A stretch of DNA of 64,000 bases from Comamonadaceae bacterium. Lineage in GTDB: Bacteria > Pseudomonadota > Gammaproteobacteria > Burkholderiales > Burkholderiaceae_C. The position numbers and the translations under genes are program-made. Shown in pieces: positions 29,542-36,812 of this stretch (the stretch's first letter is position 1; each line of letters starts with the position of its first letter). The notes below the pieces were generated by a model, which did no database searches, was not told the origin of the DNA, and saw only the letters and a program-made list of their open reading frames with translations. Where the stretch lies: the NCBI GenBank assembly GCA_947371915.1, contig CANBRM010000001.1, positions 39,236 through 103,235 on the forward strand, given 5' to 3'.

Positions 29542-30384
29542 ATGACCTTCCTTGACATGCTTAAGGGCGCCGAGCGCCAAAACGCCTCCATGCTTTGCGT
29601 GGGCCTTGACCCAGAACCGACCAAGTTTCCTGACCGCATCAAGGGCGACTCGAACAAGATTTACGACTTCTGCGCAGCCATCGTCGACGCCACGGCTGAC
29701 TTGGTGAACAGCTTCAAGCCCCAAATCGCCTACTTCGCCGCACACCGTGCCGAAGGCCAGTTGGAGCGTTTGATGGAACACATGCGACGTGTCGCGCCTC
29801 ATGTGCCCATCATCTTGGATGCCAAGCGCGGTGACATTGGCAGCACCGCCGAGCAATACGCCATCGAAGCCTTCGAGCGCTACGGTGCAGACGCCGTCAC
29901 CCTCTCGCCCTTCATGGGCTGGGACTCGGTGGCGCCCTATTTGAAGTACCACGGCAAAGGCGCGTTCTTGCTGTGCCGCACCTCCAACCCCGGCGGTGAC
30001 GACCTGCAAAACCAACGCCTCGCCTCGGTCGACGGCCAGCCCTTGCTGTACGAGCACATCGCCAAATTGGCCCAAGGTCCATGGAACTTGAATGGCCAAC
30101 TGGGCTTGGTGGTGGGTGCGACTTACCCCAAAGAAATTGAGCGTGTGCGTGAATTGGCCCCGACCTTGCCGTTGTTGATTCCTGGCGTGGGTGCACAGGG
30201 GGGTGATGCAGTGGCCACTGTGAAAGCGGGCTTGCGTGTGGCCAACGGCAACACCACAGGCCCCATCATCGTCAACTCCTCGCGTGCGATTTTGTATGCG
30301 TCAAAAGGTGACGACTTTGCCGAGGCTGCGCGCCGTGTGGCCTTGCAGACGCGTGAGACCTTGCAGGCGGCTGCGCGCGCGTAA
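29542..30384 (+). CDS. pyrF: Orotidine-5'-phosphate decarboxylase
   Basis: [44 protein letters not shown]. Confidence 0.96.
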
Positions 30385-30422
30385 GTTCGGGCACTCGCAA
30401 TCCAAGTTCATCAGGAGCAAAC

Positions 30423-30857
30423 ATGGCTTTGAATGTGGAACACCTTAACCGCAAGGTCGCCACGTTAGAGCAGGCCTTGTTGGCCATTGCGCAACACCCA
30501 GCTGCGCCTGATAACGTGTTGTTTGACCTGTATCGCAACGCGGCCATCAAGAGCTTTGAGCTGTCGCTAGAAACGGCGGGCAAGCTCCTGCGTAAAGCGC
30601 TGAAAGCTTTTGAAGCCTCGCCTCGCAGCGTGGATGGGTTGGTATTCAACGACGTGCTGCGCTACGCCGGCAAACATGGCGTGCTCACCCATGCCGAGGT
30701 AGAGCGCTGGTTGGCCTACCGCGCCAATCGCAACAGCACCGCGCACGACTATGGCGAAGGCTTTGCCAACGACACGCTGCAACTCTTGCCCACTTACTTG
30801 CAAGACGTTCGCGCCTTGGCCGTTGCGCTGCAAAAGGTGTTTGATGCCAGCGCTTGA
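30423..30857 (+). CDS. HEPN-domain protein, HI0074/HepT-like (putative toxin of MNT/HEPN pair)
   Basis: HEPN Rx4H motif in RANRNSTAHDYG; adjacent minimal nucleotidyltransferase. Confidence 0.88.
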   Translation: MALNVEHLNRKVATLEQALLAIAQHPAAPDNVLFDLYRNAAIKSFELSLETAGKLLRKALKAFEASPRSVDGLVFNDVLRYAGKHGVLTHAEVERWLAYRANRNSTAHDYGEGFANDTLQLLPTYLQDVRALAVALQKVFDASA

Positions 30858-31167
30858 GCTGGCTGCGCTCGATTTGCCCGAGCGCCATCGCAGCACGCTG
30901 CAAACGCTGTTGGCCAAGCACGTTCCGCAGGCCCAAGTTTGGGCTTATGGCAGTCGTGTGAACGGCAATGCCCACGAAGGCAGCGACCTCGACTTGGTGC
31001 TGCGGAACCCCGCCAATCTAACCCAAGACGTGCCCGGCTGGTTCGAACTGAAAGAAGCCCTGCAAGCCAGTAACCTGCCCATGCTGGTGGACGTGCATTT
31101 GTGGTCGCGACTGCCGCAGGCCTTTCACGCGAATATTGAGGCGGCTTATGTGGTTTTGCCGTGTTGA
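30844..31167 (+). CDS. Minimal nucleotidyltransferase (MNT/MntA-like antitoxin)
   Basis: VWAYGSRVNGNAHEGSDLDLVL: GSx10DxD motif; overlaps the HEPN gene by 14 nt. Confidence 0.88.
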   Translation: MPALELAALDLPERHRSTLQTLLAKHVPQAQVWAYGSRVNGNAHEGSDLDLVLRNPANLTQDVPGWFELKEALQASNLPMLVDVHLWSRLPQAFHANIEAAYVVLPC

Positions 31168-31188
31168 TGTGAAGCGCCGCTAAGGGCT

Positions 31189-31488
31189 TTAAGTGATGCT
31201 GGGGTGCTCGTTGATGAACTGACGTAGCGCTGCGTCAATTCGCGTTTGCCAGCCGCCGCCGCTGGCTTTGAAATGGTCAATCACCTCGGATGACAGGCGA
31301 ATGCCTACACGTACCTTGGTTGCATCTGCTTTGGGCCGCCCGCGTGGCGCGAGCAAAGCCTGCGCTCGCGCCTGACTGAACAGACTAGGTAGAACCTCAT
31401 GCGCTGGCCGCGCCTGAGCAAAGTCTTGCGCTGTCCAGGCAGGGTTGTCAGTGTCGGGGCTTTGCGGCTGAATTTTGCGTTTGCTCAT
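31189..31488 (-). CDS. BrnA-family antitoxin
   Basis: MSKRKIQPQSPDTDNPAWTAQDFAQARPAHEVLPSLF...GRPKADATKVRVGIRLSSEVIDHFKASGGGWQTRIDAALRQF. Confidence 0.9.
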   Translation of the reverse strand: MSKRKIQPQSPDTDNPAWTAQDFAQARPAHEVLPSLFSQARAQALLAPRGRPKADATKVRVGIRLSSEVIDHFKASGGGWQTRIDAALRQFINEHPSIT

Positions 31489-31747
31489 AGTTTTTGACCT
31501 CTCGGGAATTGGCTTTGCGAAGGCTGATGACATGAACTTTGTCGTCTCGCGGTGTAAACACCACCGCATGAAGCCGCCCCTCAATGAGACCAAGTCCAAA
31601 GAAACGGCGTTCGCCGTAATCCTTGCGCGTGTCCTCGCGTAATAAAGCGGAATCCCATTCCATGCGGGCCACAACCGTGAAGGGCAAGCCACGTTCTACG
31701 TCATTGCGGTCACTTTTGATTGGATCAAAGCTGATGTCTTGATTCAT
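31448..31747 (-). CDS. BrnT-family RNase toxin
   Basis: FDPIKSDRNDVERGLPF...RRFFGLGLIEGRLHAVVFTPRDDKVHVISLRKANSREVKNYE; overlaps BrnA. Confidence 0.92.
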   Translation of the reverse strand: MNQDISFDPIKSDRNDVERGLPFTVVARMEWDSALLREDTRKDYGERRFFGLGLIEGRLHAVVFTPRDDKVHVISLRKANSREVKNYEQTQNSAAKPRH

Positions 31748-31948
31748 TTATTGTGGCCACAATAAAGGCATCTGTCAAATTTTTTAGATGGCTCATCAAT
31801 TGAATTTTTCTAAGCAATTATTCGTATATTAAATGGGAGGGTAAATGATTGCATGGGGCAAGATCAATAAAAAATATTCATCCGCTGGCAGCACCCATGA
31901 TGGACCTTGCAACTTTTTTTCAGGCGACGCTACAACTCAGCAGCGTAT

Positions 31949-31977
31949 GGTTCCCCCGTTTATGCGGGAATAGACCC
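31949..31977. repeat. Solitary CRISPR repeat-like element (type I-E-like, 29 nt)
   Basis: GGTTCCCCCGTTTATGCGGGAATAGACCC: 29 nt, short CG-rich stem and ATAGACC end resembling type I-E repeats; no second copy one 61-nt period away on either side. Confidence 0.5.
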
Positions 31978-32085
31978 AGCGTGCTGTGATCCGTGATGGT
32001 TCTTCATATTCAGGTTTAAATCGCCATCTTCAATCCTGTCATTTCGGCGCCAGCCTCTCTCCCAACCTCCTGTTAGCCTTTCCCC

Positions 32086-32808
32086 ATGATCGACCTCTAC
32101 ACCGCCGCCACGCCCAATGGGCACAAAGTCTCCATCGCGCTTGAAGAGCTGGCGCTGCCCTACACGCTCAAGGTGCTCGACCTGTCCAAGGGCGAGCAAA
32201 AGCAGCCTGACTTTTTGGCCATCTGCCCCAATGGCCGCATCCCCGCCATCGTGGACCGCGAGGCCGATGACTTTGCGGTGTTCGAGTCTGGCGCTTGCCT
32301 GATTTACCTCGCCGAAAAAACCGGCCAGCTCATGCCCACCGATGCCAAGGGCCGCTCGCGTGTGCAGCAGTGGCTCATGTTCCAGATGGGCGGCATCGGG
32401 CCGATGATGGGGCAGGCCAATGTGTTCTTTCGCTACTTTCCGGAAAAGATCCAGCCCGCGATTGACCGCTACCAAGGCGAGAGCAAGCGCCTGTTCACGG
32501 TGCTCGACAGCCACCTGAAGGACCACGAGTACCTGGCGGGCGATTACTCGATTGCCGACATTGCCAACTGGGCCTGGGTGCGCACGCACCGTTGGTCGGG
32601 CGTCGAAGTGGAAGATTTGCCGCACCTCAAGCGTTGGCTCGATGCGATCCGCCAGCGCCCGGCCGTGTTGCGTGGCATCGAAGCGCCACCGTCGCGCATC
32701 AACCTGACCAAAGACGGCGACGATGCCGCCAAGAAGTTTTCAGAAGAAGCCCGCAAGATGGTCGAGATGGGACAAAACCAGAACACGCCCAACAAGGACA
32801 AGCCATGA
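32086..32808 (+). CDS. Glutathione S-transferase (YfcG/Ure2p-like)
   Basis: [70 protein letters not shown]. Confidence 0.92.
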
Positions 32809-33425
32809 AGCTTTACACCGCCCACCGCGCCCCCAGCCCTCGCCGCGTGCTGATGTTCCTGGTCGAGAAAAACATCACCGGCATCGAGATGGTCAACATG
32901 GACTTGAACGGTGGCGAGCACCGTCAGCCCGAGTACCTGGCCAAAAGCCCGTTGGCCAAAGTGCCCGCGCTGGAGCTGGATGATGGTCGTGTGATCACCG
33001 AGACGCGGGCGATTTGCACCTTGCTCGAAGGCCGCTACCCCGAGCCCAACCTGATGGGTGTGGACGGCGACGAGCGCGGCTTCATTGAGATGGCCGACCG
33101 GCAAGTGGAGCTGTATTTGCTGGGCGGCATCGCCAACGCGATCCGCCACAGCCACCCGGGTTTGGCCGCTTTAGAAAAGCCCCAGTTCCCCGAGTTCGGC
33201 CGTTCACAGGCCGAGAAGGTGCGCGATGTGGCGCGGGGTTTTGACGTGCGCCTGCAAAGCCAGCCTTGGATCGCGGGCGAGCGCTTCACCATTGCCGACA
33301 TCACCGCGTTTTGTGCTTTAGAGTTTGCACGCGGCTTGATGAAGTTCGTGCCCGGCGACGAGGGCATGCATGCCTTGCAGGCGTGGCGCGACCGCATGAA
33401 CGATCGGCCAAGCGCCAAGGTGTGA
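32805..33425 (+). CDS. Glutathione S-transferase
   Basis: [35 protein letters not shown]...[21 protein letters not shown]; overlaps the preceding GST by 4 nt. Confidence 0.92.
33240..33425 (+). repeat. Copy 1 of a duplicated GST 3' segment (direct repeat with 36613-36798)
   Basis: Aligns without gaps over 186 nt, 16 differences by hand count (about 91% identity). Confidence 0.95.
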
Positions 33426-33519
33426 TGGGCTGAAGACACCTAGCCACTACAACTAGAACAGCAGCTCCACTGCAGGAGCTTTCACGCGCCAAAATTTCGA
33501 GATGGGCAGCTGTGCCCCA

Positions 33520-36417
33520 TCAACGCTTAGACAAGCGATCCAGTTCGCGCCGAGCCAAGTTGTACTCGATGAATTCCAGTACGCCAGTGGCCAAACTTCG
33601 CTCTAACCAGCGTTGCGCCTGAGCTGTATTTCGCTCCAGTAAGGCCTTTTGTGAGGCAAAGAAATAAAGTTCGCATTCTCGGCCGGCTTGTTCAGACTTG
33701 TCAGCAGAAGCTGTGACCTCGACATCTTTGAGACTCTGTTCACCGCGCAATAGACGCAGTACAGGTTGGGGCCAGACAGACTTTTCGTTGCGGTGGATAA
33801 ACTCATTTGTAGCTTCCCGCCCATCTTGCCCTTGGGCTTGTAGAGATAAAAAGAGCCAGATTGCACGGTAGCTTCGTTCAAGCTCGTTGTTCCCTCCATC
33901 GCGAAGCAATATGCGAAGGTCTTCGCTGGCTCCCGCGAAATCGCCGCTCATGTAACGTGCAATGGCGCGGGTATAGCGAGGGGCTGTGCTGTTCGGGGAC
34001 AACTTTAAAGCTTCTTTTGCCGCACTTTGGGCGCGTACATCCTGACCACTCATCAGTGCATTCATGGCTAAGCCAGCTTGGGCCTCGCTGGAGGTCGAAT
34101 CAAGTTGTATCGCTGTCTCGAAAGCTTCCAGCGCGGCCTTGGATTGACCCAAATGATCCAAGTGTTCTCCTCGCTCAGTCTGCATCTGCGCCGTCAATTT
34201 GGGAGACAGGCGCTTGCCCGCCAAGATGCTGTCCAGGGCCAGAAGCTCGTAATGGGCATTGGCCTGAACCTTGGTGCTGGTTTTGATCTGTCCACCGCGT
34301 AGGCGCTCGGCTAAAGTTTTTTCAGCACTTCGAAATTCTTCAAACCCTTGAGTTGCCAAGGTGGGCATGCTTAAACGCGTGGCCATGCGCGGCCAAAGCT
34401 TTTGCAGGGCATCACGGTAACGAGTCCACTGAGCAGCTTCGATGCGTTCGGTCCGAAAGGACAGCTCTGCATTGAATTCACCAAAGTGCTTGGCTCCTCT
34501 GTTTCGCAAGCGCAGATCGAAGAATTCATTGTTTTCCACAAATGGCGTCTCAGTCTCACGCCCATAGGCTTGTTCATCGAATTCGAATCGCACAGTATGT
34601 CGATAAATGCCAGGTAAATTCACGTTCAATGCTTGCTGACGCGGCGTCATGTCGGGCAACCGCAGAGGAGACATCACGGAATACAAGACAACATCGGTTG
34701 TCATCACGCCCTTGTTGAGTAGCTGCCATATTTCATTTGGATTCGCCTGCAGACGTTGGGTGATGCGCATGGCATTTCGACCCGGAAGCTCCTCCACTTG
34801 TACAGCTCCCTGTCGCTGATAAGCAGGGTATGCCTTGGCCAAATCGCCAATCACAATGGCCTCAAAAGCTTCGGTCGTTTGACTGGCTCGTGCCATGCGC
34901 AGGTTCTCAGCCACTTCTCCAAAATAGATTGCTTCAGAGACCAGTTCACCCTGGCCGGCAATCTGATGAAAACGGAAGACATCACGCACTTCGACGCGGA
35001 GTTGTCCGTGTGATGACGGTGTATTGACAAGTGCATTTTCGCTTGCTCGCGCCATCAATGCGGGGCTCAAACCTGACACCGTGCGGTCACGCACGGGCCC
35101 GGATTGTAAGGATCGGGTGGCATCAAGCCAAAGCCAGCCATCTTGCTGTTTGATGGCCACAATGGCGTGATCGAAGTCCAGTGGGCTGGGCAGCCGCTTG
35201 CCTACACTTTGTCGGAGTGTGGTGGAGACAAGGGCTGGTACGGCCTCGATCCCCAGTTGATTCAGCAGATTCACGAGGAGTGCCGATTTGTCTTTACAGT
35301 CGCCGAAACGTTGGCGCATCACCTGACTGGCGCTGGCAGGTCGATGTGAGGATGCGCCGATTTCTGTCCCGAAATAACGCACTTCTTTTTGAACGAAATC
35401 CAGAGCCATTTCAATTCGGCGCCCAGGGTCGGTGGTGGCAGCTCTGATCTCAGCGACTTTGGCATGCAGGGGTTCGCGGTCATTCAGAGCGGGAGTGAAT
35501 TGACGTTCTGCCCAGACAGCGACCTCAGCCCAGCTTTGGAATTCGCTCCATTCGAGCAAATCGGTGAAGTCATCCTCAGGTGGTAGCAGGGGGTCGTGAC
35601 GCCATTGCGGAACTGCACGGCGACGGAACACGGTTTCACGCAAGCCATCCGGGCGGATTTGCTCACTGAACTCCACTCCAGCTGCGGTCGCGCGATGTCG
35701 GATTTTGCGATCAGGGGGTGCCAACAATCGGCTTTGTGCCAGACCCGCAGGACCATGAGATGATATGAGCCATTGCAGATCAACAAAACGGCCTTCGAAG
35801 ACGGGGTTATCGCCACTCAATGAGGCCGCCCACTCAACCCTGTCACCTACACGAGTGTCCTCCAAGACGATGGAGGCGGTCAATCGTCCATCAACGATCT
35901 GGCGTTCAAGTTTAGATTCGCGCTGCAATAATTTAACTGCCTTACGGTCTAGTCGGTCCAGCTTTTTACCGTTACGCCAGATGGCCAGCTCATGCAGGCT
36001 TAAGCGCTGATAGCTGGGGTCGAAGATCAACTCAATTTGCGAACCAGCCTCTAATCCGGCACTGCTCGTGATTTGTCGCACCACCCTTTCAAAGCGCACC
36101 GTGTCACCAGCGCCAATACGGGTCTGCGCATCCATCAGCAACGTTTGTACAGGAGATGCAGGAAGTTCAGGCAAATCAGCCAGGTCCACAGGCTTGACCC
36201 AACTTGGTTGGGCAGTAATGTTAAATGGGGTTTCAGTGGCCACACCGACTGGCTTGGTTGCTACACGCGGCGTTGAATTGGATTTAGTCACAGAGGTTTG
36301 TGCCATGACCCAAGGAGTGCACAGGCTCAAGCAGAACACAAAAATCAGACTGCTGATACGCAATCGACCGGCGAGGAAATTTGTGTCTGCGTACTGATGC
36401 TTTCTGTTCATGTTCAA
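33520..36417 (-). CDS. DUF3857/transglutaminase-like domain protein with C-terminal TPR-like repeats
   Basis: 965 aa, signal peptide; RFGDCKDKSALLVNLLNQLGIEAVPALVST...DFDHAIVAI (transglutaminase-like Cys/His region), later repeats ALEAFETAIQLDSTSSEAQAGLAMNALMSGQ. Confidence 0.85.
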   Translation of the reverse strand: MNMNRKHQYADTNFLAGRLRISSLIFVFCLSLCTPWVMAQTSVTKSNSTPRVATKPVGVATETPFNITAQPSWVKPVDLADLPELPASPVQTLLMDAQTRIGAGDTVRFERVVRQITSSAGLEAGSQIELIFDPSYQRLSLHELAIWRNGKKLDRLDRKAVKLLQRESKLERQIVDGRLTASIVLEDTRVGDRVEWAASLSGDNPVFEGRFVDLQWLISSHGPAGLAQSRLLAPPDRKIRHRATAAGVEFSEQIRPDGLRETVFRRRAVPQWRHDPLLPPEDDFTDLLEWSEFQSWAEVAVWAERQFTPALNDREPLHAKVAEIRAATTDPGRRIEMALDFVQKEVRYFGTEIGASSHRPASASQVMRQRFGDCKDKSALLVNLLNQLGIEAVPALVSTTLRQSVGKRLPSPLDFDHAIVAIKQQDGWLWLDATRSLQSGPVRDRTVSGLSPALMARASENALVNTPSSHGQLRVEVRDVFRFHQIAGQGELVSEAIYFGEVAENLRMARASQTTEAFEAIVIGDLAKAYPAYQRQGAVQVEELPGRNAMRITQRLQANPNEIWQLLNKGVMTTDVVLYSVMSPLRLPDMTPRQQALNVNLPGIYRHTVRFEFDEQAYGRETETPFVENNEFFDLRLRNRGAKHFGEFNAELSFRTERIEAAQWTRYRDALQKLWPRMATRLSMPTLATQGFEEFRSAEKTLAERLRGGQIKTSTKVQANAHYELLALDSILAGKRLSPKLTAQMQTERGEHLDHLGQSKAALEAFETAIQLDSTSSEAQAGLAMNALMSGQDVRAQSAAKEALKLSPNSTAPRYTRAIARYMSGDFAGASEDLRILLRDGGNNELERSYRAIWLFLSLQAQGQDGREATNEFIHRNEKSVWPQPVLRLLRGEQSLKDVEVTASADKSEQAGRECELYFFASQKALLERNTAQAQRWLERSLATGVLEFIEYNLARRELDRLSKR

Positions 36418-36524: not shown

Positions 36525-36612
36525 TTGTGAAATATAGACGTGTGAAATGGATTGGACGGTTAGGCGTTTGGCGCAAGGCCGTGGTCGCCATGCAAGGACT
36601 TCACCCGATGGC

Positions 36613-36798
36613 TTTGACCAACGCCTGCAAAGCCAGCCTTGGATCGCGGGCGAGCGCTTCACGATTGCCGACATCACCGCGTTTTGTGCGTTGGAGTTTG
36701 CGCGTGGCCTGATGAAGTTTGTGCCCGGCGACGAGGGCATGAGCGCCTTGCAGGCTTGGCGCGACCGCATGAACGATCGGCCAAGCGCCAAAGTTTGA
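36613..36798 (+). pseudogene. 5'-truncated GST remnant (duplicated C-terminal 61 codons)
   Basis: [61 protein letters not shown], near-identical to the C-terminus of the 32805 GST; no GST-like sequence upstream. Confidence 0.92.
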
Positions 36799-36812
36799 TC
36801 GGCAGAAAAAGA

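Follow-up and report, generated by a model that had tools for sequence, protein, structure and literature searches.

A solitary CRISPR repeat and an adjoining 5' stub of cas3 very probably survive from a complete type I-E CRISPR-Cas locus that was otherwise lost by deletion. Both lie in the gap at 31748-32085 of the window, i.e., the whole 64-kb stretch of DNA that was analysed. This gap is bounded by brnT and GST1, which in intact loci are the left neighbour of cas3 and the right neighbour of the array, respectively. Remnants of both ends of such a locus are found at the syntenic place, with the brnT/cas3 boundary and the cas3 stub on the left and the repeat and GST1 flank on the right (Table 1). 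Gene order in the window is pyrF, a HEPN/MNT-type pair, brnTA, the gap with its one repeat, GST1 and GST2. Compared with intact loci, a cas operon of approximately 9 kb is missing, as are the leader and every repeat but one.

Table 1. Coordinates of the features at the site (positions in the window)
Feature	Position	Strand	Remarks
pyrF	29542-30384	+	Left flank in the window, G011, Umea1p1_bin-590 and D1_MAG_00011
HEPN/MNT-type pair (PF08780 and nucleotidyltransferase)	30423-31167		Stands where relatives have an MFS gene
brnA antitoxin gene	31189-31488	-	PF14384, E 3.9e-23; 78-82% aa identity to relatives
brnT toxin gene	31448-31747	-	PF04365, E 7.6e-19; brnT next to cas3 in L122 and L123 is 72-75% identical (aa)
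AT-rich brnT/cas3 intergenic region	31748-31835	.	Contains palindrome TATTGTGGCCACAATA; promoter-like site for brnTA
5' stub of cas3 (~codons 1-39)	31836-31947	+	Altered start codon; disrupted reading frame
Solitary, partly degenerate type I-E repeat	31949-31977	+	Unique; only surviving repeat of the array
59 nt 3' of the repeat	31978-32036	+	No recognisable relatives; might include the final spacer plus trailer DNA
Conserved upstream region and GST1 gene (32086-32808)	32037-32808	+	91% nt identity to L024 from 32037 on; GST1 94% aa identity

The repeat and its family

The 29-mer GGTTCCCCCGTTTATGCGGGAATAGACCC is present exactly as described in an earlier, sequence-only reading of this DNA; it is the only copy in the window and also in the genome to which the window belongs, a metagenome-assembled genome (MAG; 2.74 Mb, 207 contigs, 83.5% complete). 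No second copy was found in the window or in the whole genome with up to three mismatches allowed. Likewise, no further repeat-like sequence was found in 30385-32085, including one period away, in agreement with that reading. An array needs two or more repeats spaced at a regular 61-nt period, whereas the window and genome hold a single copy.

Judged by its sequence, the 29-mer is a member of a genuine type I-E repeat family, far from what chance would produce. Repeats of 28-29 nt and of the GGTTCCCC...CGGGGATAGACCC type are common to arrays linked to type I-E cas genes. When genome contigs were searched with the pattern GGTTCCCCCGNNNNTGCGGGNATAGNCCC, 28 stretches were returned, mostly regular 61-nt arrays; the nearest array repeat, GGTTCCCCCGCGTATGCGGGGATAGACCC from a Lautropia MAG (L032), is identical at 26/29 positions. 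Identity is 24/29 to the repeats of arrays in G048 (a genome of the window's own genus), Umea1p1_bin-590 and D1_MAG_00011, where type I-E cas genes were identified with PADLOC models. For comparison with the 24/29 match to a real type I-E repeat of the same genus, random 64-kb sequences (n = 200) peak at 18-22/29. The type I-E assignment made from the letters is thereby upheld. The repeat is closer to that of Lautropia than to those of the syntenic arrays, from which it differs at 5/29 positions; thus, the repeat of the lost array may have differed slightly from theirs. Its hairpin is predicted to have 5 bp, with the basal C-G pair lost and one G-U pair, compared with the ~6 bp expected of the Cas6e type. 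No Rfam match to 31700-32150 was found.

Solitary repeats of this family were also seen elsewhere. In G263, a complete 4.9-Mb genome of the same family of bacteria, GGTTGCCCCGCGTGAGCGGGGATAGACCC (L089, 10017-10045; also L066, 1501-1529) is the sole match to the pattern and lies ~160 bp beyond the 3' end of the GST1-GST2 pair, near a PIN-domain gene. It may be another relic at a hotspot common to these genomes, or its position may be coincidental. A third solitary repeat, with a perfect stem, occurs in the Acidobacteria MAG contig JAKAJO010000046.1 (L022, 3665-3693), and no second copy was found within 8 kb of it.

The cas3 stub and the AT-rich stretch

The DNA upstream of the repeat had been described as AT-rich and leader-like. 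The first part of this description holds, as GC content over 31748-31835 is 28%, similar to the 31-33% of the brnT/cas3 intergenic region in relatives. The second does not: leaders of the family score 132-141 against one another and 19-24 against the window, which is the level of shuffled sequence. The window from 31198 to 31795, covering brnTA and the upstream palindrome region, is 78% identical to D1_MAG_00011 and 75% identical to Umea1p1_bin-590, and beyond 31795 it runs colinearly into the first cas3 codons of these relatives. Because this colinear alignment continues into the cas3 stub, the AT-rich stretch is assigned to the brnT/cas3 intergenic region. The suggestion of an ancestral leader-repeat still able to take up spacers is therefore not supported.

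The statement that the window contains no cas genes overlooked the stub. The equivalent of codon 1 lies at 31836, and an ATG stands at codon 4 (31845). The motif AWGK(L/I)N is retained, whereas between codons 11 and 17 the net loss of 5 nt shifts the frame. The translated segment HPLAAPMMDLATFFQATLQLSSV corresponds to Cas3 residues 17-39, HPLTAHMLDVAACFCAIARVDSV. The stub is colinear with cas3 of both Umea1p1_bin-590 and D1_MAG_00011, and none of 2000 dinucleotide shuffles reached the observed score against cas3 of either relative. A hidden Markov model built from twelve Cas3 N-termini aligns up to residue 39 (i-Evalue 1.5e-5). Over the last nine codons of the stub, similarity to cas3 is weak. 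Codon 39 ends at 31947, leaving one base before the repeat.

Beyond this stub, Cas1, Cas3 and Cas7e were not found in the genome, ~16% of which is missing. Cas7e of the G048 type is present in only 3/84 genomes of the genus, and the window's own genome is not among them. Thus, of the Cas1, Cas3 and Cascade genes of a functional type I-E system, only the 39-codon cas3 stub was detected, and processing of the repeat in trans by a cas locus elsewhere, as the earlier reading had proposed, is unlikely. PF09481 (Cse1) was set aside as a genome screen on account of its insensitivity. It missed Cas8e of this subfamily on contig 2 of G048 (L055), which PADLOC identified at E ~1e-189; screens relying on PF09481 alone would miss such type I-E systems.

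The palindrome TATTGTGGCCACAATA occurs with the same sequence and spacing in both relatives and is a probable BrnA operator. In Umea1p1_bin-590 (L122, 3068-3706) and D1_MAG_00011 (L123, 15357-15989), brnTA is divergent from cas3, with ~85 nt between the start codons. Given this divergent spacing and the common palindrome, BrnA may affect cas expression in these relatives. The brnT gene of Umea1p1_bin-590 has an in-frame stop codon. A general linkage of brnTA to cas3 in type I-E loci was considered and rejected, since only these two syntenic relatives show it among approximately fifteen loci examined.

Intact, deleted and empty states of the site

The intact state is represented by Umea1p1_bin-590, in which the order is pyrF, MFS gene, brnTA, cas3-cas8e-cas11e-cas7e-cas5e-cas6e-cas1e-cas2, leader, array, GST1, GST2 and AMP-ligase. 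Contig L122 carries pyrF, the MFS gene, brnA/brnT (minus strand), the cas operon, the leader and 25 repeats, and L024 carries the gene just after the array, which is 94% identical to GST1 of the window. The end of L122 equals the start of L024 (reverse strand) over exactly 97 nt inside the array; therefore, the order can be taken as contiguous across the two contigs. An isolated further repeat is present at 1128-1155 on the reverse strand of L024, ~155 bp past the array end and before GST1, so trailing single repeats also occur in an intact locus. D1_MAG_00011 matches this locus except in its trailing flank, with pyrF-MFS-brnTA-cas3...cas2 and 32 repeats; two different genes then precede GST2 and the ligase also seen in Umea1p1_bin-590. 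In the genus of the window itself, G048 has an 18-repeat array beside Cas3e, Cas8e, Cas11e, Cas7e, Cas5e, Cas6e and Cas1e (PADLOC models). The presence of same-family arrays at the syntenic position in two relatives bears out the collapsed array that had been one of the two earlier proposals.

The closest relative at the site, G011 (91% nucleotide identity in the flanks, 97% amino acid identity in GST1), represents the empty state. There, GST1 comes directly after pyrF, with 97 bp against 1,685 bp in the window (30385-32069). The extra DNA in the window comprises the HEPN/MNT-type pair, brnA, brnT, the AT-rich stretch and the repeat. The pyrF/GST1 intergenic region of G011 (L056) contains AGCGGGTTCAATTCCCGC, which resembles a tRNA T-arm; an integrated element may have left it behind as a piece of a tRNA, although no tRNA gene was found near this empty site by ARAGORN.

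On the basis of these comparisons, a complete type I-E locus very probably once stood between brnTA and GST1. A single deletion event, we infer, would have begun near codon 40 of cas3, run through the cas operon, leader and array, and ended at the leader-side edge of one repeat, leaving behind the brnT/cas3 intergenic region, the cas3 stub and that repeat. Since then, a frameshift has arisen in the stub and part of the repeat stem has been lost. On account of these two changes, the remnant is most likely an inert, non-functional relic of a known system. Several points count against the relic reading, namely the incomplete MAG, the 59 nt without recognisable relatives between the repeat and the GST1 flank, the greater similarity of the repeat to that of Lautropia, and the HEPN/MNT-type pair. 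These 59 nt match neither the L024 trailer nor phages or viral contigs, and conserved GST1 upstream sequence resumes at 32037. As the HEPN/MNT-type pair occupies the place of the MFS gene, the site has changed more than once. Further downstream, a 198-bp copy of the 3' part of GST2 (33237-33434), 90% identical, is present at 36610-36807; the DUF3857/transglutaminase gene at 33520-36417 separates the two copies, which is a sign of insertion with duplication or of recombination.

Junction, rival readings and comparison with known systems

The only unusual detail of the sequence is the apparent junction of cas3 and repeat at the repeat edge. By our own estimate, a random breakpoint would fall this near a repeat edge in ~5-10% of cases in a 61-nt unit. 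The deletion could have arisen if a self-targeting array spacer, acquired from cas3, had recombined with that gene, as an escape from autoimmunity; 31917-31948 (32 nt) would then be both cas3 codons 29-39 and the spacer, which would account for the end of cas3 homology a single base short of the repeat. The triplet preceding these 32 nt is TTT rather than AAG, the typical PAM of E. coli type I-E, which may not be the PAM of this host. No spacers matching cas3 were found in the array segments of six relatives, and comparison of the repeat flanks with the spacers of those arrays gave matches of chance length only. The 32 nt on either side of the repeat likewise gave nothing meaningful against viral contigs and phages. 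Because no cas3-matching spacer was found and the last nine stub codons are only weakly similar to cas3, this route is raised tentatively and appears unlikely.

It is very improbable that a real cas operon and array simply collapsed during assembly. Short-read assemblies do break in arrays, and that of Umea1p1_bin-590 breaks within its own; however, a collapse here would have to join cas3 to the repeat and drop ~9 kb of unique sequence, namely cas genes also absent from the rest of the bin, and it would leave the stub frameshift and the diverged repeat unexplained.

There is even less to recommend the repeat as a solitary repeat unit (SRU) encoding an RNA anti-CRISPR (Racr), in which the RNA of a lone repeat on a mobile element captures host Cas proteins. 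Such repeats are usually preceded by a promoter (PMC10651486). As in the published SRUs, the repeat is single and intergenic, with no second repeat within 100 bp (PMC10651486). However, the whole gap matched no plasmids or phages and the repeat pattern was found in no viral contigs. Promoter-like sites lie on the minus strand only, none being directed at the repeat, and no type I-E system was found in the genome as a target. Moreover, the best identity to known repeats, 26/29 (89.7%), is just below the 90% SRU cut-off, and synteny accounts for the repeat as a relic.

A CreTA-like module, in which the guide RNA of a degenerate repeat lets Cascade repress a neighbouring toxin, is just as remote: CreTA repeats are degenerate and the present one is a degenerate ectopic repeat 200 bp from brnT, but CreTA depends on a linked Cascade and on CreT, a small RNA toxin (PMC9458426), whereas BrnT is a protein toxin with an adjoining protein antitoxin and the genome yielded no Cascade gene, let alone a linked operon. 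In intact loci, brnTA stands beside cas3, and ~9 kb of cas operon separates it from the repeats at the opposite end; therefore, the proximity of brnT and repeat is a product of the deletion.

The site is thus best compared with the Burkholderiales type I-E loci of Umea1p1_bin-590, D1_MAG_00011 and G048, with which it shares repeat family, flanks (pyrF, brnTA, GST1/GST2, AMP-ligase) and orientation, together with the brnT/cas3 intergenic region and cas3 start. Unlike those intact loci, it lacks the cas operon, leader and other repeats, its cas3 stub is frameshifted and its repeat has diverged. It resembles orphan or degenerate arrays left after cas loss in having a repeat without cas genes in the genome, but only one repeat is left here, joined to a cas3 stub, such that the history of the site is readable. 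What it represents is the scar of immune-system loss, not a new kind of element. When a lone repeat with AT-rich upstream DNA is encountered, synteny should therefore be checked before it is named a leader-repeat or an RNA anti-CRISPR. CRISPR-Cas loss is common, but a readable scar is rare, and the occurrence in related bacteria of one site in intact, deleted and empty form opens breakpoints, the order of events and toxin-antitoxin persistence to study.
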